Source of the DNA: Pseudofrankia saprophytica
GTDB taxonomy: Bacteria > Actinomycetota > Actinomycetes > Frankiales > Frankiaceae
Direction of reading: 5' to 3'
Length of the DNA: 64,000 nucleotides
NCBI RefSeq assembly: GCF_000235425.2
Contig: NZ_KI912266.1
Span: 2,981,671-3,045,670 of the forward strand
Shown: one piece after another, positions 3,050 to 61,823 of the stretch
Numbering within the stretch: the first letter of the stretch is position 1
How the letters are laid out: every line of letters starts with the position of its first letter
Notes under the pieces: model-generated
The model's database searches: none
What the model saw: only the letters and a program-made list of their open reading frames with translations
Told to the model about the DNA's origin: nothing
Made by a program: the position numbers and the translations under genes

Positions 3050-3066
3050 AGACCAGGACAATAGCG

Positions 3067-3530: not shown

Positions 3531-3540
3531 CCGGAGACGA

Positions 3541-12756: not shown

Positions 12757-12776
12757 CGCCCGATGATTATCGGGCG
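12757..12776. terminator. Terminator-like hairpin
   Basis: CGCCCGAT and ATCGGGCG form a perfect 8-bp stem around a 4-base loop, 210 bases after the giant CHAT gene. No T tract follows. It could instead belong to the end of the adjoining transposase relic. Confidence 0.4.
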
Positions 12777-12795
12777 GGCCGAGGGGATCGCAAGA

Positions 12796-31935: not shown

Positions 31936-32913
31936 CTAGCGGCGGAACGGGCGTCGCCCGTCGCGGGGCTTCCTGGCGCGGAAGGTCTGGAACCAGGCGG
32001 ACGGCCGGTAGTCGCCGATCCCGAGCTCCCGGTTCACCGGGTCGTCCGGATCCTCCATCCCGTCCCTGGACGGGTCGAGCAGGCCAAGGATGTCGGTGTC
32101 CTTGAACATGGCATCCACGCAGGTGTCCCAGTCGTAGTCGCCAGGATGCGGGGGGAACCGCTCGACACTTCCGGTGATCATGTCGGGGTCGTCGAGGAGG
32201 GCGGAGGCCTCGTGGAGGGCGAGGTGCAGGGCCATCTCCTCGCCCGGGCAGCGAGGGGAGGGCCGCCTGCCGGCCTTGAGGTCATCGGCCAGGTCGTCGA
32301 AGGTTCGGGCGGCCTGGCGGCGCCAGACAGCGTCCTGCCGGTAGGTGATCCTTGGGTAGGCGTCGAAGATCAGCCAGAAGTCGCCGTCGTCGACGGGGTC
32401 GTCGCCGTGTCTCTCGACGTCGTCGTAGGCCTCGTCCGAGAGGATCTCCAGAGCCGTGTACAGGACGGCGGCGGTCCGCGGCGTCAGCTGGAAACCCGCG
32501 CACCGTTCGCACGACTCCTGTCGACAGGTGCAGCAGGCGAACAGCGCGCCGAAGTCCGGCGACGGCTCGTCGTCGTCCGTGCCGGACAGGGCTCCTCGCG
32601 CGCTATGGCCGTCGTGCCGCACCACCGAGCATGTGGTGCCGCGAGACGAGACGGCATCGATGTTGTGGACCAGGAGTTCGGGGTCCAGGATCTCGATCAG
32701 GGCGTCCGCGAGATCGGCGCGTACCTGGGCGCGGGCCTCCTGCGCGGCGTCCTCGGGCGACACGCCGTCATCGGTGCTGACATAGATACGCCCGTCAATG
32801 TCGTCGAGAGCCAGCTGACGAAACGCATCCTCGTCGATCACCTCGACGAGGATCTCGACTTCGATTCGGAGCAGGGACTTGACGGCGCCATCGGAAGGCA
32901 TGCCGCGAACCAT
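31936..32913 (-). CDS. Hypothetical protein with a Cys cluster
   Basis: 325 residues from ATG 32913; ATG 32994 or ATG 32901 are alternatives and no strong ribosome site decides. It is an acidic protein with SLLRIEVEILVEVIDEDAFR near the N-terminus. A cluster of the form C-C-x-C-x5-C-x2-C (residues near 125-136, FACCTCRQESCERC) could bind zinc. Later text reads DGDFWLIFDAYPRITYRQDA and CPGEEMALHLALHEASALLD. There is no TM. It ends with a basic tail (RARKPRDGRRPFRR). The family is not recognised. It is divergent from the integrase gene at 33193. Confidence 0.7.
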   Translation of the reverse strand: MVRGMPSDGAVKSLLRIEVEILVEVIDEDAFRQLALDDIDGRIYVSTDDGVSPEDAAQEARAQVRADLADALIEILDPELLVHNIDAVSSRGTTCSVVRHDGHSARGALSGTDDDEPSPDFGALFACCTCRQESCERCAGFQLTPRTAAVLYTALEILSDEAYDDVERHGDDPVDDGDFWLIFDAYPRITYRQDAVWRRQAARTFDDLADDLKAGRRPSPRCPGEEMALHLALHEASALLDDPDMITGSVERFPPHPGDYDWDTCVDAMFKDTDILGLLDPSRDGMEDPDDPVNRELGIGDYRPSAWFQTFRARKPRDGRRPFRR

Positions 32914-33192
32914 ACACCGGACAATACCCACAAAGAAGCTATGCCTCTTTCCCTCTGGCGGAAAGTAGCGCGACAAACGCACGAGGGCCGTCATGGTGAC
33001 CGAATCGGCGCGATTTCCGTGAGGGTGGCCGTGACGGTGACGATCGCGATGTCACCGCTTTCGACCGTGCCGGTCTATGAACAACGCCTCACCACACAGT
33101 CCGGCCGACCCTGTCAGCGGTCCGAGGGACGGCAGCTACGACCAGGCGGTTCCAGGCCCGATCCGGCGGCATGCGGCGCGGAGCGACACGCC

Positions 33193-35162: not shown

Positions 35163-38121
35163 CCGCGCCTCTTGAAACAAGATCTTCCGAGTCGAACATG
35201 TGTTCAGAATCTTGGGTGGTTCCGGACGGTTCGGCCCGTCTGGTGACCGTGGTCGTCGGCGTCGTGGTCGCGTTGACGTTCCTGTTCGGGTTCGTGCGCC
35301 ACGAGGCGCTGTGTTTCGAGTGGGGGTGGAAGACCTTCGCTTTTAGCCTGTCGCAGCAGGTTGATTGTAGCTGAGGGCAGCCTGATCCGGGTGGTGCCGG
35401 GAAGGGCGGGAGCAGCCCTGACAAAGCCAGGACGTGTCAGCACTGCCAGATGGTGCGGGCCTGGCGAGCGAGTTGGAGAGGAGTACGCGAGGAACCGACG
35501 TCTACGTCCTTTAAAACAATGAGCCGGCTCAAATCTGGTGGATAAGGGCCGGTCGCGGTGCGCACCGAGCATCCACCCGGGTGTGAGGGAACTTCGGGGA
35601 GGTCTGAAACCGCCGAACCGGAGGCCACGGGGAAAGTCTGCGGCGTACCCATGGCGATGCCGCTGGGACACAGTCGGGCTCCTCCTCCGACAAACGAAAC
35701 ATGGTGAACGTGGGAACCGCCTCGTCCGGGTTCCCGGGCAAGCTCGCAGCCAGCGGGCTGTCGGGATAGGCGCACCGACCGTCGACCGGCGAGGTGGGGC
35801 GGAGCCGCCGTAGTACTCCGAGCCGGGGAAAGCCCGGCACATGGGGAAGGGCGACAGTGGTTTCGAGAAGGGAAGGATGCTGCAATGCCGGAAGACGCGT
35901 CGTTGGATGGCGGCGCTCCACGCGGACACGACCTCACGGTGGCGGCTGCGCGGGTATCGGGGATGCAGGCCAAACTTCACCGTTGGGCGGCGGCTGATCC
36001 TGGCCGCCGGTTCGATGACCTGTACAACTTCGTGTGTGACCCGGCGACGCTGCTCGTGGCGTATCGGCGGGTCGCTGGTAACCGGGGCGCCCGGACTGCT
36101 GGTGTCGACGGCCTCACGGTCGCCGACGTCGACCGGCAGCTGGGCGTCTCCGGGTTCCTGGACGACCTGCGTTCCCAGCTGAAGGCGGGCACCTTCCGCC
36201 CGCTGCCGGTCAGAGAGCGCGTGATTCCCAAACCGGGAGGGGCGGGGAAAATACGGCGACTCGGGATTCCCACAGTCGCTGACAGGGTCGTCCAGGCCGC
36301 GCTGAAACTGGTCCTGGAACCGATCTTCGACACCGACTTTCTGCCGGTATCGTATGGCTTCAGGCCGGGTCGGCGGGCGCAGGACGCGATAGCCGAGATC
36401 CACATGTTCGGCACCAAGGGCTACCGCTGGGTGCTGGACGCGGACATCCACGCGTGTTTCGACGAGATCAACCATGGCGTGCTGATGGACCGGGTAAGGA
36501 AACGGATCAAGGACAAGCGTGTGCTGGCGCTGGTCAAGGCGTTCCTGAAAGCCGGGATCCTCACCGAACTCGGCGAGCCCCAGAACACCCGGACCGGCGT
36601 TCCCCAAGGCGGTATTCTTTCACCGCTGCTCGCGAACATTGCCCTGTCGGTGCTCGACGAGCATCTGCACGGGCCGTGGCAGCCGGGTGGGGCGCAGTCG
36701 ACCCAGGTAAAACGCGCGGGCCGGCGCAAGAAAGGGCTCCCGAGGTGGCGGCTCGTCCGCTACGCGGACGACTTCGTCGTCCTGGTCAACGGGAATGAGC
36801 ACGACGCCCAGACGCTGCGCGAAGAAGTAGTCCGGGTGTTGACCACGATGGGGCTGCGCCTGTCCGAGGCGAAGACTCAGGTCACGCATCTGGATCGGGG
36901 TTTCGACTTCCTCGGGTTCCGCATCCAGCGGCGCCGCAAGAGGGGGACAGACAAGTGGTACGTCTACACCTTCGTAGCCGACCGGGCGATCCGGGCGGTG
37001 AAGGCGAAGATCAGGGCCATGACTCCCAGGGAATCACATCAGGGCCTGGAGGACCTGCTGACCTGGATCAACAGGGTCACGCACGGGTGGGCCGGCTACT
37101 TCAAGCACGCCGTGGCGAAGCACGTGTTCAGTGCCATCGACAGCTTCGTCTGGTGGCGTCTCGCTCGGCTGCTGATGACCCGGCACCGCTGGAGATGGAA
37201 GGAGTTCCGCGCCCGATATACCACCCCCACCGGGAGGTGGTTGAACTACTGGGCCGGTACCACCGAGTGGAAGCGGACCGCCAAGATACCGGTCACCCGG
37301 TACCGCTACCGCGGCACTCGGATCCCCACCCCCTGGGCCCCACAACCCGCATAACGGCAGGGACCATGGAGCGCCCGGTGCGTCGAAAGGCGCACGCCGG
37401 GTGCGGAGAGAGGCCGTGGGAAACGGGCCGAGAGCAATCCCGGCACCGCGCCCACGGCCTACTCGACGGGAACGTCCTCGCACTCGGCCTGCGACTCGGT
37501 GTTCCAATCTGGGTCGCACCACTCGTCGCGCCGGCGGTGGACCTGTCGATCGTCGGTCTGCTTCTCGGCTGCCGGCGACTCTCCGTGAACGGCGGGCCTG
37601 TAGAGGTCCTGCGCTCGGCGCGGAGACTGCTCATCTTCGCGAGCACCGTCACCCTCGCCCTCAACATCGCCGAACCCCTTATCGCCGGCCACTACGGCAA
37701 AGCGGCCTTCGACGCCGTCGGACCACTCCTCCTTATCGGCTGGTCCGAGGTCGGACCGGGACTCCTCCACGCCATGCAGACGACGAACCGCAGGACAGAT
37801 GCCGGGGAAGGTCAGCAGGCAGTCCCACCACCCAGCCAACCCGGTCCGCATCCGGATCCGGCCGCCGAAGCTGACCACCGGCCAGCACGGAACGACGCTC
37901 CCCCAGCGGGTACGCCATCAGCGGCCGGGCAGGACCAGGCCCGGCGGCAGGACCTCCTGCACCGGGCACGCGCAGAGGACGTACTGCACTGGCAACAGCA
38001 CCAACGACCGATCTCCGCAGACAACCTGAGAAAACGACTCGCCGTCGGCGCGACCACCGCCCGCAGCCTGGTCACCCAGCTCCGCAGCGACACCCACGGC
38101 GCACTCGACCACCGCACCTAG
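35159..38121 (+). CDS. SpdB/DUF2637-like membrane protein interrupted by a group II intron
   Basis: Exon 1 is 35159-35293 (GTG start, 45 codons, ending LTFLFGF). Exon 2 is 37468-38121 (217 codons, starting GNVLALGLRLGVPIWVAPLV). The second copy at 43682 reads LTFCFGFGNVLALGLRLGVP without a break, so the join is exact and in frame. The spliced product has 262 residues. It has about four TM helices (the last near LLIFASTVTLALNIAEPLI), a Pro-rich linker and a C-terminal winged-helix-like end (DNLRKRLAVGATTARSLVTQ). The family resembles the SpdB2/DUF2637 spread proteins of actinomycete integrative elements. Without splicing, a 71-residue fragment is made. Its start overlaps the stop of the small upstream gene. 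Confidence 0.82.
35885..37354 (+). CDS. ltrA: Group II intron-encoded reverse transcriptase/maturase
   Basis: 489 residues from ATG 35885, with a purine-rich AAGGGAAGGA upstream. The RT blocks are RRLGIPTVADRVVQAALKLV, PVSYGFRPGRRAQDAI, WVLDADIHACFDEINH, TGVPQGGILSPLLANI and RLVRYADDFVVLVNG (the YADD catalytic site). The maturase (X) domain follows (WINRVTHGWAGYFKHAVAKH, RWRWKEFRARY). It ends soon after, with no HNH endonuclease visible. It should assist splicing and mobility of the surrounding RNA. Confidence 0.93.
   Translation: MPEDASLDGGAPRGHDLTVAAARVSGMQAKLHRWAAADPGRRFDDLYNFVCDPATLLVAYRRVAGNRGARTAGVDGLTVADVDRQLGVSGFLDDLRSQLKAGTFRPLPVRERVIPKPGGAGKIRRLGIPTVADRVVQAALKLVLEPIFDTDFLPVSYGFRPGRRAQDAIAEIHMFGTKGYRWVLDADIHACFDEINHGVLMDRVRKRIKDKRVLALVKAFLKAGILTELGEPQNTRTGVPQGGILSPLLANIALSVLDEHLHGPWQPGGAQSTQVKRAGRRKKGLPRWRLVRYADDFVVLVNGNEHDAQTLREEVVRVLTTMGLRLSEAKTQVTHLDRGFDFLGFRIQRRRKRGTDKWYVYTFVADRAIRAVKAKIRAMTPRESHQGLEDLLTWINRVTHGWAGYFKHAVAKHVFSAIDSFVWWRLARLLMTRHRWRWKEFRARYTTPTGRWLNYWAGTTEWKRTAKIPVTRYRYRGTRIPTPWAPQPA
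37369..37406 (+). ncRNA. Group II intron domain V
   Basis: The segment starts GAGCGCCCGGTGCG, has a CGAAAG loop and returns with CGCACGCCGGGTGCGG. It matches the domain V pattern: an AGC triad at the start, a GAAA-type loop and a two-part stem. It lies between the RT stop and the 3' splice site. Confidence 0.75.
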
Positions 38122-45483: not shown

Positions 45484-46056
45484 GATTACTCTCCGTGATA
45501 CTTGCCTGGTGCCGTGACGGTGCGCGGTGTGCCGCGAATCGCCGCTAGATGCCGTCCTGTCTGGTCAACGGCGTGACCTCAAAGATCGTCGCCGGTCGAC
45601 TTTCCCTTACTGTGCGTCACAGTGTCGGCCCGTGTCGCTCAGTTTGGCATCATGCCGGCGTCATAGACCCGTTGATCCCGGTCGAGGGCCTACAACGCAG
45701 CGTGATGCCGGCGTGGGGAGTCCGTTCGGCGTGCCGGACGGCGCTCGCTGCCGGCGGACCTTGGATCTCCTCGGGCCGCCGCCACGTCACTCGCCACCAC
45801 CGTCGCGGTGATCACCCTCGCGCCCGGCAGGCGGGCACGCACACGACGCGCGGTCGGAGCAAGCTCGGGGACGGCCTGCTCAGGCGGCTTCGCCGGTTCG
45901 GCGTCGGGGCGACGGTGACGTAGCCGCCGCTGGCGTCACAGGCGGCCACGGCTTCCGGATCTCCGCCTCCGGTATCACGTCCCCGTGTCGTCGTGCGTCC
46001 CCCTACGTCGATGATGGTCCTGCTCGTGCTGCCGGATGAACGAGGCGGGGGTAGCG
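45484..46056. other. Intergenic region upstream of CHAT-TPR
   Basis: No supported gene. It must contain the promoter of the CHAT-TPR gene at 46057. No clear motif was seen. Confidence 0.4.
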
Positions 46057-49000
46057 ATGCGGGTGCGGCTACTGGCGGCGGTCCAACACCGGCTGGACCG
46101 GTTCATCCAGACCCAGGACCCGGCGGCGGTCCTGGACAGCGAGGCGACCGCGCAGGCGCGGGAACTGTTGGCCGCGGTTCCCGATCCGGCGGCGGACCTC
46201 GAGGTGGCGTTCGCGGTCGGCTGGCTGCACTGGTTCCGTTACCAGGCACTCGACGCGGGCGACGACCAGGAGGACCTCGCTGCCGCGGTGCGCCTGCTCG
46301 CGCCGGTGTACCTGGCTTCGCCCGATGCCGTACCCGAGCAGGTACGAGGCTTCTTCGAGCAGTCCGCGGGCACCGGCCAGCCTCCTACCGCAGCGAAGGA
46401 CGGACCGCGGACGTGGGCCCGCGACGGCGTCCGTCTGCTGCGACATGGCAGGTCGACGGGCGACCTCGCCTCCGTGGAGGGGGCGGTGCGGCTGCTGCGA
46501 CAGGCGGTCGACGCGACGTCGGCTAACGACGAGGCGCGCCCGCGGCGGCTGTCCAACCTTGCCGCGGCCCTGCTGGCCCGGTATTCACAGGTCGGCGTGC
46601 CAGCCGACCTGGACGCGGCCGTGGAGATCGGCCGTCAGGCAGTGGACGCGGCCGCGGTGGACGACGACCATCTCGCCGCGATGCTCTCGAACCTGGGTGG
46701 TGCGCTCCGTGCCCGCTACGAGCGCACCGGCGCTCCGTCCGACCTGGACGCGGCGGTAGACCTCAGCCGCCGGGCCGCCGACGCGACCCCCCTCGGCCAT
46801 CCCGACCGTGCGGAGCGCCTGTCGAACCTCAGTGCCGCACTCCAGCGACGCTTCGGTCGCACCGGAATGCCAGCCGACCTGGACGCGGCGGTGGAAAGCA
46901 GCAGCCAGGCGGTCGACACGGCTGGACCCGACCACCCGGACCGGGGCGCGATGCTGGCGAACCTGGGCACGGCGCTGCGGAGCCGTTTCGAGCGCACCCA
47001 GGTGCGCGCCGATCTGGACGCCGCGGTCGACGCCGCCCGCCAGGCTGTCGACGCCACCTCACCGGCCCGCGCCGATCACGCTGTCTACCTGTCGAGCCTC
47101 GGGATCGCTCTGCTGACGCGCTTCGAGCAGATCGGCGTCACGGCCGACCTGGACGCCGCGCTCGACGCTGGCCGCCGGTCCGTTGACGCCATGGCAATGG
47201 GCCATCCCGACCGGCCGGGGCAGCTGTCCAATGTCGCCGCGGCGCTGCAGCGGCGCTTCGGGCACACCGGCGCGCTGGCCGACCTCGACGCCGCCATCGA
47301 GGTCGGGCGCCAGGCGATCGACGCCGGACCGCCCGGGGACCCGGAGCGGGCGCGGTATCTGACCAACCAGACCAGCGCGCTCTGGACGAGGTTCGGCCGC
47401 ACCGGGTCACTCGCGGACCTGGATGCCGCCGTGGACGCCGGTCGCGCGGCCGTCCGCGCCACCCCGACCGGCCACCCGGACTGGCCCGGGCGCCTGTCGA
47501 ACCTCGCCGCAGCGCTGCAGCGGCGCTTCGGACAGACCGGCACGCTCAGCGACCTGGACGCGGCCGTCGACATCGGCCGCGAAGCGGTCGGCGCCACGCT
47601 GCCCGGCCATGTCGACCGCGCCGTGATGCTGACGAACCTGGGTGGCTGCCTTCGGGCGCGTTTCGAGCGGACCGGGCTCCTCACGGATCTGGACACCGCC
47701 GTGACCGCCGCCCGAGCGGCCGTCGACGAGACGCCGGCGGGCCATACGGAACGGGCGGGGCGTCTGTCGAACCTCGCGGTCGCGCACCTGACGCGGTTCA
47801 CCCGGACGGGGACGCCCTCGGACCTGGACAGCGCGGTCGAGATCGGACGCCGGGCCGTGGAAGCCACCCCGTCCCACCATCCGGACCGCGCGCTGTACTT
47901 GTCCAACCTGGGCGCGGCGCTGCTCACCCGGTCCGAGCGAGCTGAGTCGTCACCGGACCTGGACGCGGCGGCCGAGGCCAGCCGGCAGGCGCTCGACGTC
48001 ACGCCGCCTGATCATCCCGACCGTGCCGTCTATCTGTCGAACCTCGCGACCGCGCTGCTGACGCGGTTCGACCGGCACGGGGAGCCGGCGGATCTGGATG
48101 CCGTGGCACAGGCCGCCCAGGAGGCGGCCGGCCTCGTGGTCGCGCCGCCGCGGGTGCGGGCGGTGGCTGCCCGGCAGTGGGGCAGGTCCGCGGCGCTGCG
48201 TGGGCGGTGGGACGAGGCGGTCGTGGGCTTCGCGGCAGCCGTGGAACTGCTCGGCGAGCTGGCCGCGCGGGAGTCGTACCGTGCCGACCAGGAGGACCTG
48301 CTCGCCGAGGTCGGCGGCCTCGGCGCCGAGGCCGCGGTGTGCGCGGTCCGCGCGGGCGACCCGGCGCGCGCGGTCGAGCTGTTCGAACAGGGACGAGGGG
48401 TGCTGCTCGCGCAGGCACTGGACGCGCGCGCCGACCTGAGCGCGCTGCGAGACCGGCAGCCGGCAATGGGCGACCGGTTTGGCACCCTGACCGCCGAACT
48501 GGCGCGCCCCCCGCACGCGGCCGTGCCCTGGACCGCTGATCTCGCGGCGGCCGACGAAGTGGAGCTGTCCGCGAGGCGTCGGCGTGCGGCGCGGGAGGAG
48601 CTCGACCGCCTCGTCGCCGACATCCGTGAGCTGGATGAATTCCAGGAGTTTCTGCGGCCGCCGAGGCTGGCCGAGCTGGTTCACGCCGCCGCCGGTGGCG
48701 CGCTGGTACTGGTCGCCGTCTCCAGGTACGGCGCGTATGGGATTGTTCTGTCCGGCGACGGCCTCGCCGAACCGCTGGAACTCGCCGGGCTGACTCCGGA
48801 ATCCGTCGCGGCGCAGGTAACGTCCTTTCTCACCGCGATGGACCTCGTCGGGTCGGCGACGAACCGAGACGAGCGGACACAGGCACGGGCTGGTGTCACC
48901 CAGACGCTGGGCTGGCTGTGGGACCATCTCACCGGCCCGGTGCTTGACCAGCTGGAGATCCTCGGCGTTCTGCCCGGCGCCGGCGAGGCAGCTCCTCCAC

Positions 49001-49785
49001 CACGGGTGTGGTGGTGCCTGTCCGGCCCGCTGTCCTTTCTGCCCGTGCACGCCGCGGGATGGTTGGACACCGGCGCTGGCAAAGGACAGTCCACGGCGCT
49101 CGACCGGGTCGTATCGTCGTTCATACCGACGCTGCGCGCTCTGATCCACGCGCGGCGCAGAGCCACGCCGGGCTCGTCGCCAGAAGGCGGGACGCTGGCG
49201 GTCGCCATGCCGAGAACGCCGGGCGCCTCCGACCTTCCCGGCGCCAAGGCCGAACTGGCGGTCGTGGTCGCGCACCTGGGCGGCGACGCCAGAACACTCG
49301 TCGGCGAGCAGGTCCAACGGGAGACGGTCCAGGACGCGCTGCCCGCGGCGACGTGGGCGCACTTCACCTGTCACGGCTACAGCGACCTCGCCGCCCCGTC
49401 GAGTAGCCGGCTGCTCCTACACGACCACGCGGACAGACCGTTCAGTGTGGTGGAGGTCGCGCGGCTGCGCCTCGAGCACGCCGACCTGGCTTATCTGTCG
49501 GCCTGTTCCACAGCCCGCCCCGGCGGCCGGCTCGCCGACGAGGCAATTCACCTCGCCTCAGCGTTCCAGCTCGCCGGCTACCGGCACGTCGTCGCGACGC
49601 TCTGGCCAGTGCCTGACCGGCCGGCCCGGCGCGCGGTCGACGTCATCTACGGCCGGCTCGTCCGTGACGGCCAGCGCGACGCGAGCCGCGCGCCCGACGC
49701 CGTCCACGCGGCGGCCCACGCGTTGCGCGAGCGATACCCGGCCTATCCCGATATCTGGGCTGCGCTCATTCATTCGGGTCCGTGA
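46057..49785 (+). CDS. CHAT-domain TPR protein
   Basis: 1242 residues from ATG 46057. This start aligns with the homologue at 59816 and has GAGGCGGGGG upstream; ATG 46036 is less likely. A conserved N-terminal domain of about 100 residues (RLLAAVQHRLDRFIQTQDPA, DLEVAFAVGWLHWFRYQ) is shared with the 55560-59816 protein. About 13 TPR-like units follow with consensus ADLDAAVxxGRxAVDAT and HPDRAxxLSNLxxALxxRF. A helical bridge (AVELFEQGRGVLLAQALDAR) leads to the CHAT protease with HFTCHG (His1106) and YLSACST (Cys1150). It ends IHSGP. A soluble caspase-like effector, first gene of the second conflict cluster. Confidence 0.92.
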   Translation: MRVRLLAAVQHRLDRFIQTQDPAAVLDSEATAQARELLAAVPDPAADLEVAFAVGWLHWFRYQALDAGDDQEDLAAAVRLLAPVYLASPDAVPEQVRGFFEQSAGTGQPPTAAKDGPRTWARDGVRLLRHGRSTGDLASVEGAVRLLRQAVDATSANDEARPRRLSNLAAALLARYSQVGVPADLDAAVEIGRQAVDAAAVDDDHLAAMLSNLGGALRARYERTGAPSDLDAAVDLSRRAADATPLGHPDRAERLSNLSAALQRRFGRTGMPADLDAAVESSSQAVDTAGPDHPDRGAMLANLGTALRSRFERTQVRADLDAAVDAARQAVDATSPARADHAVYLSSLGIALLTRFEQIGVTADLDAALDAGRRSVDAMAMGHPDRPGQLSNVAAALQRRFGHTGALADLDAAIEVGRQAIDAGPPGDPERARYLTNQTSALWTRFGRTGSLADLDAAVDAGRAAVRATPTGHPDWPGRLSNLAAALQRRFGQTGTLSDLDAAVDIGREAVGATLPGHVDRAVMLTNLGGCLRARFERTGLLTDLDTAVTAARAAVDETPAGHTERAGRLSNLAVAHLTRFTRTGTPSDLDSAVEIGRRAVEATPSHHPDRALYLSNLGAALLTRSERAESSPDLDAAAEASRQALDVTPPDHPDRAVYLSNLATALLTRFDRHGEPADLDAVAQAAQEAAGLVVAPPRVRAVAARQWGRSAALRGRWDEAVVGFAAAVELLGELAARESYRADQEDLLAEVGGLGAEAAVCAVRAGDPARAVELFEQGRGVLLAQALDARADLSALRDRQPAMGDRFGTLTAELARPPHAAVPWTADLAAADEVELSARRRRAAREELDRLVADIRELDEFQEFLRPPRLAELVHAAAGGALVLVAVSRYGAYGIVLSGDGLAEPLELAGLTPESVAAQVTSFLTAMDLVGSATNRDERTQARAGVTQTLGWLWDHLTGPVLDQLEILGVLPGAGEAAPPPRVWWCLSGPLSFLPVHAAGWLDTGAGKGQSTALDRVVSSFIPTLRALIHARRRATPGSSPEGGTLAVAMPRTPGASDLPGAKAELAVVVAHLGGDARTLVGEQVQRETVQDALPAATWAHFTCHGYSDLAAPSSSRLLLHDHADRPFSVVEVARLRLEHADLAYLSACSTARPGGRLADEAIHLASAFQLAGYRHVVATLWPVPDRPARRAVDVIYGRLVRDGQRDASRAPDAVHAAAHALRERYPAYPDIWAALIHSGP

Positions 49786-49943: not shown

Positions 49944-50169
49944 TCATTGATCGGACCACAGACGACGTCGTCTCACCTGGAACCCTGGAAGGCCCTGGAA
50001 CACACTGATAGGCACGGCATGAACGTCTGGTGCGGGTCCGCCGCGCCGCAGGATGCTCCGTTTGTTCCCGCCTGGCCATTCCGCCGAAGCGTTGCGTGCG
50101 CTCGCCAGCGATGTGCCAGGATCGTTGCGGCGGCCGCCAGCGCGAGCGAAGGACGACACCGGGGGGCTC

Positions 50170-52653
50170 ATGGCGGGCGACGGCGCAGGTCCCCTGATCG
50201 CGCCCGAACTCGTCGTGCACCTGTTCGCTCCGGCGGGCGGTCCCCACGCGGCCGAGACGTACGGCTACCTTCGCCGAGCCTGGTTCGCCTGTCGCGACGA
50301 GTTCGGCATGCGGCACCCCATCCCGGCGCTCGACCTGCCCCGCGACCCGCCCGAGCGGCACCGGCCGGAGCCTGGCGCGATCGATGAGTTCCTCGCGGCG
50401 CAGGCGCACGCCGGCGAGGGCGTGTTCCAGGCTCTGCTGCGTCGCGCCCACGACGTCCTGTGCCTGTCGATCATGCTCGCTCCGTCACCGGCGACCTCGC
50501 CGAGCTGGGTGGAGCTGCAGCGGCGGTGGGTGCGAGCCTGCGGTCCCATCCCCGGCGGACTCCTCGGCGCGGCCGAGATCTACCAGGCCCGCCTCGCCGA
50601 TCCGGAGACCTCCCACGTCGAGCCGGCCCACCCGCTGGCGGCGGCCTGTCGGGAACTGCTCCCGGCGCCCACCCCACCCGTCTGGTTCGACAACCTTGGC
50701 GTGGCGACGCCCCAGGGGTTCGCCGTCTGGGAGGCGGAGCGCGACGAGGAGGCGAGGGCACGCCGACGCATCGTCGTCCTCGCGCCGAACGACCGCGACG
50801 ACGAGTTGTCGGCCTGGACCTGGAGCCGAGGGGACGCCGCGATCACGCCCTTCGCCCGCTACCTCATGCACGCGGCCAAGCTCCGCTATCACCTGCGGGT
50901 CTGGGCGGGTGGCGACCCACTGCGCACGGTGCGAGACCGCACCGACCAGCTCACCGAGTCGGTGGCGGGGCTGCTCGACGAACAGCTGGCGGCGGGCGGC
51001 GCCCTCCCGCGCCAGGACGAGGGCCGGACACGCACCGGCGACCTGCGCGCCCAGGCGCTCCACCTGGCCCTGTCCATGACGCGAGTCCGCGAGATCAGAC
51101 ACTCGGTGGAGATCGCCGGGTACAACCTCGCGCAGTACGCGCCCCCGGCCGACGCTCACGGCGGCAACGGAGGCGGGTTGTTCGCCGACGACCGTGACCT
51201 GGCCTCCTGGTTCCCCCAGCAGCTCGACGACGACCTGCGCTACGCGGACGCGTCGGCCGAGCGCGCCCAGAGCGCTCTCGACGCCGCCGAGCGGGTGCTG
51301 GACCCGCCACCCGCCCACCGCGGGATCGCCGAGCCTGACTCCGGACGGCCCCTGCCCGAACCCCCGGCCCAGGCTCGGGGTGAGCCGGGACCGGCGGCCG
51401 TGCCGGCCCCGCGGGGCCTCACGCCCCCCCGGCTACCGGGGCCGGCTCGGGTACTCGCGCTCGCGGACGAGTGGCTGCCCGGGCGAGGCGGCCTCAGCGC
51501 TCTGAACCGTTCCCTGTGCGCCGCGCTGGCCGAGGCCGGGGCCGAGGTGTACTGCGTGGTCCCCGGGGCGACGCCCGAGGAGCGGTCCGACGCCGACCGG
51601 GTCGCCGTGCGGCTGGTGGACGCCCCCGCCCTGCCCGGCGCGGCGCTGCGGGACCTGCTGATGCGCCGGCCGCCGCTGCCCGACGGCGTGCTGCCCGACC
51701 TGGTCCTCGGGCACGGCCGCATCACCGGCTCGCACGCGAAGGCCGTGACAGAGGACCACTTCCCGGCGGCCCGCCGGGTGCACATCGTCCACACGTCGCC
51801 CGACGAGACCGACTGGTGGCGCCCCGACCGCGGCGAGGACACGGGTGCGGTCGCCGAGACCCGCACCGCGGACCAGGTCGCGCTCAGCCGGGACGCCGCC
51901 GTCGTCGTGGCGGTCGGCCCACGGCTGCACCAGTGGATCAGCCGCGAGCTGTCCGTCTTCGACGACGCCCCCACACCGCTGCGCCTCGACCCCGGTTTCG
52001 ACTACACCGACCAGGCACCGCGCCGGCCTCCGCCGGGAGTCCCGCAGGTGCTCATGCTCGGCCGCCTCGAGGACGCCAGCACGAAGGGCCTCGACCTCGC
52101 CGCCCGCGCCGTCGGGCACGCCGCGGCGCTGCGCGCCCCGGCGGATCCCCCCATCGAGCTGCTCCTGCGCGGCGCGCCCCAGGGACAGGCGCGGGTGATC
52201 AGGGAACAGGTCCTGGCGTGGGCAGGGCGCCCCGGGCTCGCCGTGACCGTGCGCAACTACTCGCCGGACACCGAACGGCTCGGGCAGGACCTGCGCAGGG
52301 CGAGTCTGGTCCTGATGCCCTCGCGCGCGGAGGGCTTCGGGCTGGTGGGCCTCGAGGCGATCGTGGCCGGAACACCGGTGCTGGTCAGCGATCACAGTGG
52401 CATCGGCGACCTGCTGCGGGAGGTGCTGCCCCCATCGGAGGCCGACCGTCTCGTCGTGCCGGTCGGGAACGACGAACGCGACGCCGAGGAATGGGGCCGC
52501 AGGGTCCACGACGCTCTGCGCGACCGCCCGGCGGCGTTCAGCCGCGCCGAATCGGTCCGCCGCGCCATGCGCGAGCACCGGACCTGGGCTACGGCCGTCA
52601 CCCGTCTCCTGACCGCTTTCGAGCTGTCGAGGCCGGCGGGCGACGACCGCTGA
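50170..52653 (+). CDS. CATRA-type domain fused to GT4-family glycosyltransferase
   Basis: 827 residues from ATG 50170, chosen because the domain begins a few residues later and a GGGGGG run precedes it. Residues about 10-400 carry the pattern I recall for the CATRA (caspase/TPR repeat-associated) domain. It reads APELVVHLFAPAGG, RRIVVLAPNDRDDELSAWTW with SRGDAAITPFARYLMHAAKL next, RYHLRVWAGG, IRHSVEIAGYNL and FADDRDLASWFPQQLDDDLR. A Pro-rich linker (about 400-425) leads to a GT-B glycosyltransferase. That domain has VLALADEWLPGRGGLSALNR at 428, QVLMLGRLED, and the EX7E motif SRAEGFGLVGLEAIVAG (Glu721, Glu729). The donor and acceptor are unknown. It lies between a CHAT-TPR gene and an NB-ARC-TPR gene on one strand. 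The fusion is unusual for a conflict system. Confidence 0.78.
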   Translation: MAGDGAGPLIAPELVVHLFAPAGGPHAAETYGYLRRAWFACRDEFGMRHPIPALDLPRDPPERHRPEPGAIDEFLAAQAHAGEGVFQALLRRAHDVLCLSIMLAPSPATSPSWVELQRRWVRACGPIPGGLLGAAEIYQARLADPETSHVEPAHPLAAACRELLPAPTPPVWFDNLGVATPQGFAVWEAERDEEARARRRIVVLAPNDRDDELSAWTWSRGDAAITPFARYLMHAAKLRYHLRVWAGGDPLRTVRDRTDQLTESVAGLLDEQLAAGGALPRQDEGRTRTGDLRAQALHLALSMTRVREIRHSVEIAGYNLAQYAPPADAHGGNGGGLFADDRDLASWFPQQLDDDLRYADASAERAQSALDAAERVLDPPPAHRGIAEPDSGRPLPEPPAQARGEPGPAAVPAPRGLTPPRLPGPARVLALADEWLPGRGGLSALNRSLCAALAEAGAEVYCVVPGATPEERSDADRVAVRLVDAPALPGAALRDLLMRRPPLPDGVLPDLVLGHGRITGSHAKAVTEDHFPAARRVHIVHTSPDETDWWRPDRGEDTGAVAETRTADQVALSRDAAVVVAVGPRLHQWISRELSVFDDAPTPLRLDPGFDYTDQAPRRPPPGVPQVLMLGRLEDASTKGLDLAARAVGHAAALRAPADPPIELLLRGAPQGQARVIREQVLAWAGRPGLAVTVRNYSPDTERLGQDLRRASLVLMPSRAEGFGLVGLEAIVAGTPVLVSDHSGIGDLLREVLPPSEADRLVVPVGNDERDAEEWGRRVHDALRDRPAAFSRAESVRRAMREHRTWATAVTRLLTAFELSRPAGDDR

Positions 52654-55559: not shown

Positions 55560-58500
55560 TCAGATCCCGATGTGGATGTGCGAGGCCCATCGCGACGGAT
55601 GGGCCGGCCGCCTGCCGCGAAGATGCCTGATCGTGGCGTGCAGGGCCGCGGCTGGCTCGGCCGCCGCGGGGCCGGTCATCGCCGCGTAGGTGCGGTCGGT
55701 GACCGTGACGGCGCCGCTGCTGTCGATCGGCCACAGGGTGGCGATGACGTGACGGTAGCCGGCAAGCTGGAACGCCGAGGCCAGGTGAATCACCTCGTCG
55801 GTGAGCCCGTCCGTGGGAGTGGCCGTCGAGCAGGCCGACAGGAACGCGAGGTGTGCCTCCAGCTGGAGCCGCAGGACGTCCGCGACGGTGAACGGCCGTT
55901 CCCGGTGATCGTGCAGAAGCAGCCGGCTCGCCGACGGGTCGACCGGATCGGAATAGCCGTGGCAGGCGAAGTGGGCCCAGCTGACACCCGGGAGGGCCGC
56001 GTGCACCGCCTCCCATGTCGCCTGCGGGCCGGTCAGGTCGCGCACCCGGCGCGGCAGACGCCGCTGGAGCACCGCGAGTTCGGCGCCCGCCCCGGGGACA
56101 CCGACCCCGGCCTGACCGGCCGGCGACGTGGAGGGCATCGTGACCGCGAGGACCTCTGCGTTTCCCGCGTCGGCGCGGGACCGGCGCGCGTGGGTCAACG
56201 CGCGCAGCGTCGGGGTGTAGGAGGAGATCACCCGGTCGAGGACCGTGGCTGGAGCGGGGTCGAGCCGCGTGTCGTGGCGACCGGCGGCGTGGACGGGCAG
56301 GAACGACAGCACCCCGGCCGTGCACCACCACAGCCGCGGCAGCTCCGACGTCTCCTCGGGGGAGCGCGGCGGCAGCAGACCGTGGTGGTCGATGTGGCGC
56401 AGGACCGGTCCGGCGAGCCGGTCCCACAGCCACGCCAGCGTCTCGGTCAGCCGTCCCTGCGCCTGGTCCCGCCGGTCCCGGCCCGCTTCCTCGTCCCCGA
56501 GGGTGGCCAGCGCGTCGAGGAACTCCGCAGCCTCCCGCGCGACCACGTCCGGAGTCATGGTCTGAAGCTCCAGCGGCTCGGCGACCTCGGTCTCGGTGAC
56601 CACCAGGGCATACGAGCCGTACGGGGACACCGCGACCAGCACGACCGGTCCGCCGGCGGCCGCCCGCTTCAGCGCCGCCAGCGGCGGGGGGCGCAGGAAG
56701 CCGGCAAGATCGGGCAGGTCACGCACCTGTGCGACCAGCCCGTCGAACTCGGCGCGCAGCGCCCGGCGCTCCGCGATCAGTCGCTCCGCCCCCGCCGGGC
56801 TGGCCGCCGCGCCGACGGACGTCGTCCCTGCGCTCGGGCTCGTCCCCGGCCGGTCGAGGGCGGCGGCCAGCTCGACGAACCGGTCGTGCAGGACGGGAGC
56901 GGCCGCCAGAAGATCACTGAGGTCGCCACGGGTGTCCAGCGCCTGGCCGAGGAGCACCCCGCGGGCCTGTTCGAACAGCTCGACCGCCCGCTCCGGCCTG
57001 CGGGCGCGCACCGCGCTGACCGCGGCCTCGGAGCCAAGACCGCGCACCGCGCCGAGCAGGCTCTGCCTGTCCGACCACGACAGCTCACGCGGCACGAGCT
57101 CCTCGAGCAGCCCCGCCGCGGCCGCGAAGCCCTCGACCGCCTGCTCCCAGCGCCCGGCCGCCGCCTCGGCGCTCCCCCATGCTCCCGCCGCGAGCGCGCG
57201 GGCCCGCGGCGGAGCGGCTTCGACGTCGACGGCCTCGCGGCTGACGTCGGCCGCCTCGGCCAGGTCCGCCAGCTCCCCGGTCCGGTCGAACCGTGTGTGC
57301 AGGGTGGAACCAAGATTGAGCAGGCGGGCCGCCCGTTCCGGGTGCTCGGCGGGGGTCGCCGCGACGGCCCGTCGGTGCGCGTCGACCGCGTCGTGGAGGT
57401 CGGCCAGCGACCCGGTCCGCAGGAACATGCTGCGCAGCGACAATCCGAGGTTCGTCAGTACGGCGGGCAGTTCCGGGAGGCCGTCGGGGGCGAGCTCGAC
57501 GCCGCGGCGGCCGGCCTCGACAGCGGCGACGAGGTCGGAGAGCTCGCCGGTCCGCTCGAACCGGACGTGCAGAGCCGCGCCGTGGTTCGTCAGGACGACC
57601 GCGAGGCTCGGGTGGTCGGCGGGGGTCACCTCGAGGGCCAGGCGCCCGGTGTCGACGGCCTCGTCGAGACTCGCCGGGTCCGCGGTCCGCTCGAAGCGCA
57701 GCCGCAGCGCGAACGCCAGGTTGGCGAGCTGACCAGGGCGCTCGACGTCATGGGGACGGCCCACGTCCACGGCCTGTCGCGCGGCGTCGATCGCCTCCTC
57801 CAGGTCGGTCGTGAGGCCGGTCCGCTCGTAGCGGGCCCGCAGGGCGGCCCCCAGGTTCGACAGGTACCGGGCGCGGTCCGGGTGGTCGGCGGGGATCTCC
57901 GCCACGGAGAGCAGGCCGAGGCCGACCGCCTCGTCGAGGTCCGCCAGCACCCCGGTCCGGTCGAACCGCCGGTGCAGGGCGAGCCCGAGGTTCGACAGCC
58001 AGCCGGCGCGGGACGTGTGGTCGCCCGGGACAGCCCCGACGGCCTGTCGGGCGGCGTCGACCGCGGCGTCGAAATCGGTCAGGGAACCGGTCAGCTCGGC
58101 GCGTGCGCGCAGGGCCAGGCTGAGGTTGGACAGGTAGGCGGCAGCGTCCGGGTGGTCGTCGGGAAGTGCGGCGGCGGCACGACGGGCGGCCTCGATGGAC
58201 TCGTCGAGACCGGCCGGCGTCCCGGTCCAGTCGGATCTCAGGAACAGACCGGTGCCGAGCACCGACAGCCGTGACGCGCGGTCCGGATGCAGCGCCGGGG
58301 TTGCCTCGACGGCCGAGCGGCTGGCGTCGATCGCCGCGTCCAGGTCCGCCAGCGCGCCGGTCCGCTCGAACCGGGTCTGCAGGGCATCGCCCAGGGCCGA
58401 CAGGTACCGAGGGTGGTCGGTGTGGTCGGCGGGGGTGGCGTCGAGGGCCAGCCGCACGGACTCCACCGCTTCGTCCAGGTCGGCGAGCGCTCCGGTCCGC

Positions 58501-59816
58501 GCATGCCGCAGGCGCAGCGCGACCGCTAGGTTCGCCGCCATCGCGGCCCGGGCCGGATGAGCGGACGCCGCCTCGACGGCCAGCCTCGCGGCCTGGACCG
58601 CCCCGTCCAGATCCCCGAGGCTCCCGGTCCGATCGAAGCGGCTGCTCAGGGCGAATCCCAGGTTCGTCAGCACGGCCGCACGTTCTGGGTAGTCCTCGGC
58701 GGCCGCCGCGGCGGCGGACCTGCCTGCCTCGACCGCGGCGTCCGCGTCGGCCAGGTTCCCCGTCTGCCCGAACCGGGTTCGCAGGGCGGAGCTGAGGTTC
58801 GACAGGTAGCCCGCGCGGTCCGGGTGGCCGGCGGGTGCCGCCGCGGCAGCCGCCCGGGCCGCGTCGATCGCCTCATCGAGGTCGGCCACAGCTCCGGTTG
58901 CCTCGAACCTGGCCAGCAGCGCGATCCCGACGTGGGAGAGGTAGGTGGCTCGCTCCGGGTCGTCAGCGCCGGCGCCGTCGGCCGCCGACCGGGCTGTCTT
59001 GATCGCCGACTCGACGTCGTCCGCACGCCCGGTCCGCGCGAACCTGGTCAACAGGACGGTGGCGAGGTCCGACAGGTAGGTCGAGCCGACCGCCGCACCG
59101 GCCGGCGCCGCGTCGACCGCTCCCGTCCAGGCCTCGACCGCCCCGTCCAGGTCGGCCAGGTGGTGGGTCCGTCCGTAGCGCAGGACGAGAACGAACCCCA
59201 GCCCCGACAGGATGTCGGCGCGGCGAGGATGGTCGGGCGCGGCCGCGTCCAGAGCGGCCCGGCCGGCGTCGACCGCCTCGTCGAGGTCGGCCGGGTCGGC
59301 GGCCTGCTCGAAGCGGGCGCGCAGCGCGAGCGCCAGGTTCGACAGCCGGCCCGGGCGGTCGGGGTGGCCGGGCGCGGCGGCCGCCGCCGCTGCCCGCGCG
59401 GCCGCGACCGCGGCGTCCAGGTCCGCGGGACGGCGGGTCCGCAGGGCGTCCTCGACGAGCCCGGCGGCCCGGACGGCGTCGGGCGCGTAGTCCTGCGCGG
59501 CCGGTCCCGCGCCGTCGAAATAGGTCCGCACCGGGCCGGGTACCGCCTCCGGCCGGGCCCGGTAGAGGTGGATCAGCAGGCGCAGCGCCGCGGCGCGGTC
59601 GTCGTCGTCCTCGCCGGGCGGCAGCAACGCATAGCGGTAGTAGTGCAGCCAGCCCGCCGCCGCACAGACCTCGAGGTCCTCCGCGGGTTGCGCCACCGAG
59701 GCCATGAGCGCCCTGACCTCGGCCACCGCCGAGGCGTCGAGCAGTATCGCCGGATCCTGGCTGGCCTGGAACCGGGCAAGCCGCTCCCGGACCGCTTCGA
59801 GCAGCTGGTCGCGCAT
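55560..59816 (-). CDS. CHAT-domain TPR protein
   Basis: 1418 residues from ATG 59816 (GAGGTGAG upstream). The N-terminal domain (MRDQLLEAVRERLARFQASQ, DLEVCAAAGWLHYYRYALL) is shared with the protein at 46057. About 17 TPR-like units follow (ALADLDAAIDASRSAVEATP-type). Then come the AVELFEQARGVLLGQALDTR bridge and the CHAT domain with HFACHG (His1286) and FLSACST (Cys1329), ending IHIGI. Its 3' end converges with the HTH-NB-ARC gene with 33 bases between. Its 5' end faces the CATASP-like gene at 59957, suggesting shared control. A soluble caspase-like effector; substrate unknown. Confidence 0.92.
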   Translation of the reverse strand: MRDQLLEAVRERLARFQASQDPAILLDASAVAEVRALMASVAQPAEDLEVCAAAGWLHYYRYALLPPGEDDDDRAAALRLLIHLYRARPEAVPGPVRTYFDGAGPAAQDYAPDAVRAAGLVEDALRTRRPADLDAAVAAARAAAAAAAPGHPDRPGRLSNLALALRARFEQAADPADLDEAVDAGRAALDAAAPDHPRRADILSGLGFVLVLRYGRTHHLADLDGAVEAWTGAVDAAPAGAAVGSTYLSDLATVLLTRFARTGRADDVESAIKTARSAADGAGADDPERATYLSHVGIALLARFEATGAVADLDEAIDAARAAAAAAPAGHPDRAGYLSNLSSALRTRFGQTGNLADADAAVEAGRSAAAAAAEDYPERAAVLTNLGFALSSRFDRTGSLGDLDGAVQAARLAVEAASAHPARAAMAANLAVALRLRHARTGALADLDEAVESVRLALDATPADHTDHPRYLSALGDALQTRFERTGALADLDAAIDASRSAVEATPALHPDRASRLSVLGTGLFLRSDWTGTPAGLDESIEAARRAAAALPDDHPDAAAYLSNLSLALRARAELTGSLTDFDAAVDAARQAVGAVPGDHTSRAGWLSNLGLALHRRFDRTGVLADLDEAVGLGLLSVAEIPADHPDRARYLSNLGAALRARYERTGLTTDLEEAIDAARQAVDVGRPHDVERPGQLANLAFALRLRFERTADPASLDEAVDTGRLALEVTPADHPSLAVVLTNHGAALHVRFERTGELSDLVAAVEAGRRGVELAPDGLPELPAVLTNLGLSLRSMFLRTGSLADLHDAVDAHRRAVAATPAEHPERAARLLNLGSTLHTRFDRTGELADLAEAADVSREAVDVEAAPPRARALAAGAWGSAEAAAGRWEQAVEGFAAAAGLLEELVPRELSWSDRQSLLGAVRGLGSEAAVSAVRARRPERAVELFEQARGVLLGQALDTRGDLSDLLAAAPVLHDRFVELAAALDRPGTSPSAGTTSVGAAASPAGAERLIAERRALRAEFDGLVAQVRDLPDLAGFLRPPPLAALKRAAAGGPVVLVAVSPYGSYALVVTETEVAEPLELQTMTPDVVAREAAEFLDALATLGDEEAGRDRRDQAQGRLTETLAWLWDRLAGPVLRHIDHHGLLPPRSPEETSELPRLWWCTAGVLSFLPVHAAGRHDTRLDPAPATVLDRVISSYTPTLRALTHARRSRADAGNAEVLAVTMPSTSPAGQAGVGVPGAGAELAVLQRRLPRRVRDLTGPQATWEAVHAALPGVSWAHFACHGYSDPVDPSASRLLLHDHRERPFTVADVLRLQLEAHLAFLSACSTATPTDGLTDEVIHLASAFQLAGYRHVIATLWPIDSSGAVTVTDRTYAAMTGPAAAEPAAALHATIRHLRGRRPAHPSRWASHIHIGI

Positions 59817-59956
59817 CTCACCTCTGTCACCGCTCCCCCATGCGGCCCCGCAGCCCCGGGTCGTGCCAGCGCATTCCGGGCCCTTGCCAGGCAGGGGCCA
59901 GGATATCTTCTGACCGATGGAGATCGACAGTGTCGCGTGCAGAGGGGCGGGCGCTC
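59817..59956. promoter_or_regulatory. Divergent promoter region, CHAT-TPR and CATASP-like genes
   Basis: 140 bases separate two divergent starts and must hold both promoters. No clear operator was found by eye. Confidence 0.5.
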
Positions 59957-60274
59957 GTGCCTATCGACGGGGAGCTGCGGCGGGAGGCACTCGAGGTGCT
60001 GGCGGAGATCGCCAGCTGGGAGGCCGGTGCGACCCGCTGGGACGAGGTCGCCGCGCTCCTCGACGCGATGGCGGAGGCTGAGGCCGCCGACGATCCCGAG
60101 GCCCTGGACGCGGCCACCGCCGAGCTCGAGGCGCTCAGCCCGTGGCGGGCCAAGGAGGCCGGAACGACGCCGAAGACACCCCCGCCGGACCCGGTCCGTG
60201 AACGTCTCAACGAGACCAAGCACCAGATCACCGGACGGGACGACGAGGCGACCGGCTCCAAGGACCCGCTTTGA
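59957..60274 (+). CDS. CATRA system-associated small protein (CATASP-like)
   Basis: 105 residues from GTG 59957, with GAGGGG about nine bases upstream. The core (LRREALEVLAEIASWEAGAT, then RWDEVAALLDAMAEAEAADD, ATAELEALSPWR) is helical and shares the W-D-E-V-A-x-L-L-D-A pattern and layout with the gene at 2684-3049. A polar tail with PPPDPVRERLNETKHQITG follows. It is divergent from a CHAT-TPR gene. Probably an adaptor that binds the CHAT/TPR machinery. The family is named from memory. Confidence 0.65.
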   Translation: MPIDGELRREALEVLAEIASWEAGATRWDEVAALLDAMAEAEAADDPEALDAATAELEALSPWRAKEAGTTPKTPPPDPVRERLNETKHQITGRDDEATGSKDPL

Positions 60275-60310: not shown

Positions 60311-60400
60311 TCAGGGTCCGAAGTGGATGAAGGCGGACCACAGGTCGGGGTGGGTGGGGTAGCGGCGAATATCCACGCGGTACGCCGCGGCCGGGGGTCC
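60311..60400 (-). pseudogene. C-terminal relic of a further CHAT protein
   Basis: Minus-strand text ending YRVDIRRYPTHPDLWSAFIH then FGP and TGA 60311-60313. The intact CHAT protein at 46057 ends RYPAYPDIWAALIHSGP, so this is the last 25 or so residues of another CHAT domain. Everything upstream is lost. Confidence 0.65.
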
Positions 60401-60489
60401 TGACTGCCAGCGGCCTGGTCGCCTTCTCGTCGGCGGGCCACCCGGATGCCCCGCCCGGCCACCGCCGAGGCTCGGCCGCGCCGGCCGAG

Positions 60490-61200
60490 TCAACCGGCGA
60501 AGGCGACAGCGGTGACGTCGCGGTCGAGGACGGCGGCCTGGTGGCCGTAGGTGTTCGACCCGTCGACGCGGATCATGACGCAGAACCGGTCGATCGCCCC
60601 GACGGCATTCGAGACCGCGTGGAACTCCTGCCTGAGAAAGTGGATCGCGGCTCGGTTGGAGATCGCGGTCTGGCCGCAGATAAGAACGACCGGTCTGCTC
60701 GCCCCCGTCGGGGTGAACTTCGCGACGAGGGCGTACTCCCGCCGGCCCCGGTCCAGCGCGAACTGCTGGTCCCCGACGGTCAGGGCAGCCGAATCGGCCC
60801 TCGTCGGGTGAACCGGATGAACCGTCACGCCCGGCAGCTGGGAGGCCACGTGACCAGCCGTGCGGGAGTTCGACTCCGGGCCGCCTATGCAGAACTCGGT
60901 TCGGTTCCCGTTGCTCTCACGGAAGCCGGTCGAGGACTGGACGGAGACCGGGCAGGCGGCCTCGCTGGCCAGCACCGCGACCTCGATCATCGCGTGCACA
61001 TCGTGATGGCTGGTGCTGCCGGGCGCGTCCCACTTGTTGTTCAGGATGACCAGGCAGGTGCCACCGCGTTCCAGGCCGAAGAACAGGGCCTTGCGCCGCA
61101 GCACCCGAGCCCCGCTCGCCCGCTGCCACGCCCACACGGCCCCGCCGCTGATGACACTGGTGAGGAGACCGATCACGATGTTCAGGACCGCCGCCGACAC
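60490..61200 (-). CDS. Membrane-anchored protein of unknown function
   Basis: 236 residues from GTG 61200. GGAGGTAAG seven bases upstream fixes the start; the ATG at 61269 lacks one. One TM helix (about residues 4-25, AVLNIVIGLLTSVISGGAVW) is followed by a cytosolic domain. It has ALFFGLERGGTCLVILNNKW, HHDVHAMIEVAVLASEAACP, EFCIGGPESNSRTAGHVASQ, LVAKFTPTGASRPVVLICGQ and AAIHFLRQEFHAV. The alternation of strands and helices suggests an alpha/beta sensor-like domain. I do not recognise it. It could belong to the CATRA cluster by position. Confidence 0.72.
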   Translation of the reverse strand: MSAAVLNIVIGLLTSVISGGAVWAWQRASGARVLRRKALFFGLERGGTCLVILNNKWDAPGSTSHHDVHAMIEVAVLASEAACPVSVQSSTGFRESNGNRTEFCIGGPESNSRTAGHVASQLPGVTVHPVHPTRADSAALTVGDQQFALDRGRREYALVAKFTPTGASRPVVLICGQTAISNRAAIHFLRQEFHAVSNAVGAIDRFCVMIRVDGSNTYGHQAAVLDRDVTAVAFAG

Positions 61201-61823
61201 CGTTCTTACCTCCAGGTGACCAGGCCGCCGGTACGAACAGATCCTCCCATGGCGGGACACCTCAGGCATCTCGCTCGGCCGCGCTGACCGGTGGGGCGGG
61301 CCAGCCGCCGGTCAGCGCAGCGGTGTGCCACCTTCGAGGCGGCCGCCTCGCCGGTCGCGCGAGCCGCCACGCAGGCGATGACGAGCCAGGAGCAACGACG
61401 CTAACGACTCGGGAACCCGTTGCGTCGAGAAGATCCGCCCGGCCAGTTCGGGCTGGCGGGCCGACTCGCGGACGAGGGCACGCAGTGCCTGCTCACGCCG
61501 GCGGTCGCGCCGCGCGGGATGGCCGGAGGGAGGACATGGTCCTGAGGCAATGCCGTGAAGCTTAAGTCGATCTTGGATGGTTGATCTTCTGCTGTTGCTG
61601 GCCGGTGGCCTGGACATGCGCTCACTTCTGCGGGATATGCCTGCTCCGATATCTGTAACGTAACCTGGATAGAACTCTCTGGAGGAGTTACCTCGGTGAC
61701 GGCTCGACGCATAGAACAAACCGTTATGGAGGGTCTGAAGGGTAGTGGAGCATCACTTGTTAACCGACGGGACCCTGAGTTTGACGTGAGCGGTCTTGGT
61801 GGTCCACTGAACTGGGGTGGATG
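61201..61823. other. Intergenic, possible decayed minus-strand coding
   Basis: One minus frame at 61312-61520 reads REQALRALVRESARQPELAG and RVPESLASLLLARHRLRGG, which looks protein-like but has no supported start. Otherwise nothing is seen. Confidence 0.3.

Follow-up and report, generated by a model that had tools for sequence, protein, structure and literature searches.

The DNA analysed here, a 64,000-nucleotide stretch of the Pseudofrankia saprophytica genome (hereafter the window), encodes a protein in which a CATRA module is joined through a proline-rich linker to a family 4 glycosyltransferase (GT4) domain. Around this gene lie genes for two TPR-CHAT proteases, an HTH-NB-ARC-TPR protein of the STAND type, the small protein CATASP (7 kb from the fusion gene), and a protein with a single hydrophobic segment, which we call the one-TM protein (Table 1).

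Table 1. Genes, domains, and motifs of the window, in order of position
Feature	Position	Strand	Evidence and remarks
TPR protein	runs off window start		probably the continuation of the CHAT gene with which L069 ends
CATASP-like gene	2684-3061	-	
AAA ATPase gene	3867-5891		
TPR-CHAT protein, 2233 aa	5846-12547		
TPR-CHAT protein	13562-17278		
TIR-TPR fusion, 842 aa	28626-31154	-	weak PADLOC matches: Argonaute-associated TIR, bSEFIR
Large phage-integrase-family protein	32146-34776	+	
Group II intron reverse transcriptase/maturase	35885-37354	+	
TPR-CHAT caspase-like protease, 1249 aa	46036..49785	+	Pfam CHAT 1.6e-43, TPR_10 2.5e-9; FTCHG, LSAC motifs
CATRA-GT4 fusion protein, 827 aa	50170..52653	+	ORF, Pfam, and homologue alignment
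CATRA-N domain, residues 13-221	50206..50832	+	Pfam PF20269, E ~1.3e-62 to 1.3e-63
CATRA-C domain, residues 227-366	50848..51267	+	Pfam PF20270, E ~6.3e-39 to 1.7e-39; long helices in AlphaFold model
Pro-rich linker, residues ~367-424	51268..51441	+	low model confidence; relatives differ
GT4-conflict glycosyltransferase domain, residues 429-813	51454..52608	+	Pfam PF20706, E 1.9e-142
EX7E motif, E721-GFGLVGL-E729	52330..52356	+	both Glu invariant, 12/12 aligned fusions
HTH-NB-ARC-TPR STAND protein, 869 aa	52917..55526	+	GTG start after GGAGGA; Walker A GTAGAGKTT intact
Second TPR-CHAT protease, 1418 aa	55560..59816	-	Pfam CHAT 1.1e-42
CATASP small protein	59840..60274	+	PF20271 1e-22, residues 49-132; true start may be downstream
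One-TM protein, ~240 aa: one N-terminal hydrophobic segment, alpha/beta domain	60490..61269	-	no Pfam match at E<=1

Positions 1-17278, together with a CATRA-EAD1 gene found 11 kb before the window start, look like an island of CHAT/CATRA genes, and the phage-integrase-family protein and group II intron reverse transcriptase/maturase are signs of mobility in the region. A 60-aa frame on the minus strand (60311-60493), whose end (RRYPTHPDLWSAFIHFGP) resembles the CHAT proteins of the window, is perhaps a decayed CHAT remnant.

The frame of the fusion gene is open over 50053-52653 on the plus strand, with the ATG at 50170 as the best fit to the starts of homologues, and the coordinates and domain borders given in the preliminary description were correct. 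That description had placed residues 1-410 with CATRA proteins, and the relationship is borne out by matches to PF20269 and PF20270 that both lie far over the curated cut-offs; NCBIfam family BN6_48550 also spans the CATRA half (E 9e-113), and a sequence comparison of this half with solved structures gave a single chance-level match (E 0.69). For the other half, Pfam already holds a dedicated family, PF20706, 'Family 4 Glycosyltransferase in conflict systems' (GT4-conflict), which covers 385/385 model positions at 475 bits, against 53 bits for a general glycosyltransferase model and at most 78.5 bits for the next-best PF20706 matches elsewhere in the same genome. Because PF20706 at its own low cut-off matches 14/14 control genomes, it is the bit score that matters for assignment to this family. 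The proposed GT4 domain with an intact EX7E motif is thus supported by a full-length PF20706 match and by the conservation of E721 and E729, which are invariant, as are R632 and K639, in 12/12 aligned fusion proteins; the fusion of genome G056, outside this alignment, has the same four residues by a separate one. We take the two glutamates to be those of the EX7E motif of GT4 enzymes and R632 and K639 to be basic donor-binding residues. A glycine pair in the N-terminal loop is lost in one of the 12 (L106, from Labedaea). The AlphaFold model of CATRA-GT4 (12 fusion proteins; mean pLDDT 77.9, pTM 0.52) gives a GT-B fold in the GT4 part and a poorly modelled linker: residues 383-420 have pLDDT below 50, and the best fold matches in the PDB are the GT-B enzymes GlgM (8.7e-14), MshA, WaaG, and BshA.

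Among 296 genomes sampled from the class, 22 contain CATRA-N (21 of them over the curated cut-off), against 0/14 control genomes, which excludes chance as the source of the match, while GT4-conflict at E<=1e-60 occurs in 13/296 (the best 10 candidates per genome being scored for CATRA-N and the best 6 for GT4-conflict). By coordinates, the two lie in one gene in five of the 296 (G000, G017, G056, G224, and G039). A contig scan of named genomes, which rested on two peptide patterns so that its counts are lower bounds, gave at least 21 loci, at least 11 of them with a complete fusion: in Frankia sp. CIT1, Frankia sp. QA3, Kutzneria sp. 744, Labedaea rhizosphaerae, Actinacidiphila epipremni, and Streptomyces prunicolor, cyaneofuscatus, europaeiscabiei, sp. 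MBT65, sp. AcH 505, and pseudogriseolus. With loci that carry two labels merged (L103=G017, L104=G224, L112=G039), there are 13 distinct actinobacterial fusion loci, namely the 11 from named genomes, the window, and G056. We compared these with 24 CATRA loci without GT4, once by ORF-based phmmer and then by ORF-free tblastn, omitting duplicates (L064, L065, L067), partial or weak CATRA pieces (L088, L099-L102, L122), and G289, which is under the cut-off; L119 entered as a CATRA locus via tblastn, its CATRA gene not having been called as an ORF. In tblastn both halves were present in 13/13 fusion loci, and GT4 in 0/24 of the others. Separately, CATRA and GT4 pieces within one stretch of Frankia sp. 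CiP1_Cm_nod1 (L101/L122) form a broken additional fusion copy.

Fusions of the Streptomyces type have a shorter CATRA half, in which CATRA-N covers about positions 2-138 of 203 model positions (L112 as L067, L113, L114, L116, and L123) and CATRA-C is under the cut-off (L114), partial (L116, L123), or without a Pfam match at E<=0.001 (L067, which is L112, and L113). Between the window fusion and three relatives, dN/dS rises from 0.23-0.29 in GT4 through 0.36-0.43 in CATRA to 0.5-1.0 in the linker. That the fusion recurs at 13 loci in different genera, with each half under purifying selection, rules out a sequencing or annotation join and marks the fusion as a selected protein, and the doubt raised at the outset, that it might be unique to this genome or an artefact, can be set aside. 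A GT4 tree of 26 rows that include the 13 fusions needs three changes, a single change suffices in 0/200 bootstrap trees, and GT4 proteins of Actinomadura (L107/L108) and Streptomyces (L110/L111) nest within the fusions. A single fusion origin is accordingly disfavoured by the tree, although its well-supported branches by themselves are compatible with just one; loss of CATRA in the nested rows would also explain it.

Both CHAT proteins flanking the fusion (46036-49785 and 55560-59816) carry FTCHG/FACHG and LSAC motifs, whose His and Cys are presumably the catalytic residues. CHAT was found at 12/13 fusion loci, against 12-13 of the 24 CATRA loci without GT4 (Fisher 0.03 at 13/24), counts that are lower bounds because the query misses divergent CHAT proteins such as those of L110 and L111, which Pfam recovered. 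The one fusion locus without CHAT (L113) is a 4.9-kb piece that contains TPR sequence. The survey thus upholds the CHAT-TPR neighbourhood seen initially, both for the two genes in the window and across the fusion loci. CATASP does not differ between the two sets, being present at 8/13 fusion loci by phmmer and 7/13 by tblastn, compared with 9/24 and 10/24. PADLOC, run on six proteins of the locus, returned nothing at E<=0.001 save a weak mad1 match of the STAND protein (8.6e-4), so that a defence role for these genes is drawn from family context only.

The STAND gene follows the fusion closely across genomes. By tblastn, a STAND/NB-ARC gene is present at 12/13 fusion loci (194-746 bits), against two matches at the 24 CATRA loci without GT4, both weak at 39 bits (Fisher 6e-7, or 7e-9 if only matches over 50 bits are counted); the 12/13 figure is taken from tblastn directly, since the ORF-based comparison failed to register the STAND gene of the window. 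The thirteenth locus, of Frankia sp. CIT1 (G017), ends at a contig end, and this genome has a STAND gene at the end of a different contig, on a piece that also matches CATASP. When a profile of eight NB-ARC proteins was run over the 296 genomes (best 3 candidates per genome), its five top matches (1104-1307 bits, the next being 701) fell in exactly the five fusion genomes; four of these were profile members and so scored high by construction, and G017 was outside the profile. Pairwise distances of CATRA, GT4, and NB-ARC correlate across 11 loci (r 0.83-0.94; 0/2000 Mantel permutations as high), as would be expected of a jointly inherited block, and general species relatedness also contributes. 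The arrangement is not fixed: in Labedaea (L106:218-2758) the NB-ARC protein has an N-terminal TIR replacing the HTH, and two CHAT genes separate its gene from the fusion gene, 7 kb away. The association also extends to GT4 genes without CATRA. In Actinomadura fibrosa (L107, 6701-11120), a GT4 gene with about 95 residues before the GT4 domain adjoins an NB-ARC gene, and phmmer, tblastn, and Pfam (the last applied to six neighbours) detected no CATRA, CHAT, or CATASP in 17.4 kb; in a second Actinomadura genome (L108:9191-11594), a GT4-conflict gene lies beside a 76-aa TPR piece of an HTH-NB-ARC-TPR gene, and the same three were not found in the DNA around it. Since GT4 and NB-ARC occur together in L107 without the other components, the STAND protein would seem to be a partner of GT4 rather than of CATRA. 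The STAND gene that accompanies the fusion is a candidate sensor.

The one-TM family is likewise enriched, with members at 8/13 fusion loci against 0/24 CATRA loci without GT4 (Fisher 3e-5) and at three loci where GT4-conflict follows a different N-terminus (L110, L111, and L115); it was not found at five fusion loci, of which two are short or cut. In L110:1073-11230 and L111:5954-11215, the GT4 gene with its different N-terminus adjoins a divergent CHAT-TPR gene and a one-TM family member, and L110 also encodes a trypsin-TIR-STAND protein. A search over the 296 genomes (best 9 candidates per genome scored) found the family in 36, in 33 of which every copy is on a contig without a GT4-conflict match at E<=1e-60, and CATRA, GT4, CHAT, and NB-ARC were not found in eight regions around one-TM copies without GT4 on the contig; together these rule the family out as a strict GT4 partner. 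The one neighbour of such a copy that was scanned (L157) is a gamma-glutamyltranspeptidase. In its predicted structure (mean pLDDT 79.2), the one-TM protein combines a long helix at the N-terminus with an alpha/beta domain, and it has no match in the PDB at E<=0.001.

The proteins at CATRA loci without GT4 show what else can be attached to this module. All 23 that were scanned with Pfam (of 24 such loci, the L119 gene being left out) match CATRA-N and CATRA-C, and besides these, 15 contain EAD1 (N-terminal in one, L068), two a CAP12-type TIR, five C-terminal hydrophobic segments, and one (L118) none of these. The CAP12/Pycsar-type TIR domains end two proteins of a single genome (G275; L082:7536-10289 and L083:8789-10513), and in the five proteins with neither EAD1 nor TIR (L071, L075, L087, L120, and L121) a simple hydropathy scan detects one to three segments after CATRA-C. 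TIR and transmembrane modules are typical of killing effectors. Since EAD1, TIR, or hydrophobic segments hold the same slot in other CATRA proteins, the GT4 domain is, as judged from domain architecture, one among several exchangeable CATRA-linked modules. This pattern of module swapping fits better with an effector acting on a cellular or invader target than with modification of the CHAT partner.

The reading that we prefer, at a probability of roughly 60%, is that the fusion protein is the component that carries the effector in a CHAT-dependent CATRA conflict system, with a sugar-transferring GT4 effector under CHAT/STAND control. In such a system, CATRA would keep GT4 inactive within a complex with CATASP and the TPR-CHAT protease; a signal of invasion, sensed via the TPR repeats, the STAND protein, or both, would activate the CHAT protease; and the active protease would free or unlock GT4, which could then move a sugar from an NDP-sugar onto an essential cellular (or invader) target, thereby halting the infection, probably with the sacrifice of the cell. 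Proteolytic release of GT4 at the linker is plausible by likeness to Csx29, the TPR-CHAT protease of Craspase, which is a type III-E CRISPR system; a conserved cleavage site within the linker is not supported, however, as no shared motif was found across 12 fusions, whose between-anchor stretches run from 46 to 125 residues. A more elaborate form of the proposal is tentative and on balance doubtful: CATRA-GT4 loci might be a distinct four- to five-component subtype, in which a GT4-specific clade of STAND proteins is the specific sensor, the one-TM protein is a membrane anchor or first acceptor, and the protease and STAND protein together act as a two-key licence for a sugar-based effector of killing or arrest.

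The target is where the most serious alternative departs from this. GT4 could glycosylate phage DNA, a phage protein, or a surface molecule essential to the phage, and so neutralize the invader without killing the cell, as would agree with the nearest folds, which include WaaG and MshA, enzymes acting on lipopolysaccharide and a metabolite. The authors describing conflict GT4 domains also propose, in the available text of their paper (PMC8195603), that these domains alter molecules of the invader or block interfaces, but the modules in the same slot of other CATRA proteins (TIR, hydrophobic segments, and EAD1) point to the cell itself and nothing points to a phage substrate, and we consider an invader target rather unlikely. 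Glycosylation could instead be directed inward, at the CHAT, STAND, or one-TM protein, to set the activity or localization of the system. The tracking of CATRA-GT4 loci by the one-TM family speaks for such regulation; the absence of detectable one-TM members from five fusion loci and the occurrence of CHAT where GT4 is absent make it improbable, and the 33 of 36 one-TM genomes without a copy on a GT4-conflict contig show that this protein is not an obligate GT4 substrate.

Two further explanations depart more widely from the proposed effector. If GT4 were a sensor of sugars or nucleotide sugars rather than a working enzyme, loss of the glycine pair in L106 would be readily accommodated, but invariance of EX7E, R632, and K639 in all 12 aligned fusions and purifying selection that is stronger on GT4 than on CATRA make this very improbable. 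Just as little weight can be given to a developmental or housekeeping glycosylation locus under STAND control, for which one could cite the matches of the HTH-NB-ARC-TPR protein to the AfsR (266 of 1430 bits) and HaaT (251 of 1125 bits) models; both are far under the cut-offs, and the patchy spread of the fusion (5/296), its CHAT/CATASP context, and the presence of EAD1 and CAP12-TIR in sister proteins all speak against it.

Several known systems share parts of this locus. The NCBIfam model of Craspase Csx29 matches both CHAT proteins (8.1e-7 and 1.2e-10), which like Csx29 are of the TPR-CHAT type, but at 28.3 and 40.9 bits, far under the cut-off of 300, and no CRISPR-associated protein was present among the window proteins scanned. 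CATRA-EAD1 and CATRA-TIR loci have the same CATRA module, often with CHAT and CATASP nearby, but their slot is filled by EAD1 or CAP12-TIR, and the HTH-NB-ARC-TPR partner is absent from the 24 loci but for the two weak matches. The caspase-dependent ternary systems to which CATRA belongs are predicted systems, and the small protein in the window is Pfam's 'CATRA-Associated Small Protein', a component that it has in common with them. The preliminary description had regarded glycosyltransferases as unusual in CHAT/CATRA systems; this does not stand, as caspase-dependent CATRA systems in which GT4 takes the effector position were described in 2021 (Kaur et al., 2021, eLife e70394, PMC8195603, in its available text). 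That text gives Burroughs and Aravind, 2020 as the citation for CATRA systems; the word CATRA is absent from the available text of the 2020 eLife paper. In the literature we found neither the STAND partner nor the one-TM family linked to CATRA, which Burroughs and Aravind, 2020 may do, and no named target for the glycosyltransferase effectors of conflict systems.

The pairing of CATRA with GT4 is therefore already known in kind, and what is new is the STAND gene that appears to go with it and the often adjacent membrane protein. The CATRA-GT4 locus recurs as a compact set of genes (protease, CATASP, CATRA-GT4, STAND, and one-TM) in Streptomyces and relatives, through which the question of what a conflict GT4 glycosylates becomes testable. 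As far as the available text of PMC8195603 goes, the published systems share with the window the CATRA domain, GT4 as effector, and a caspase-like protease, to which the window adds the HTH-NB-ARC-TPR STAND gene, a second CHAT gene, and the one-TM protein. The same text describes fusions of STAND NTPases to GT4, in which the two are coupled as they are here, but in one chain, whereas in the window they are separate genes accompanied by CATRA and CHAT.
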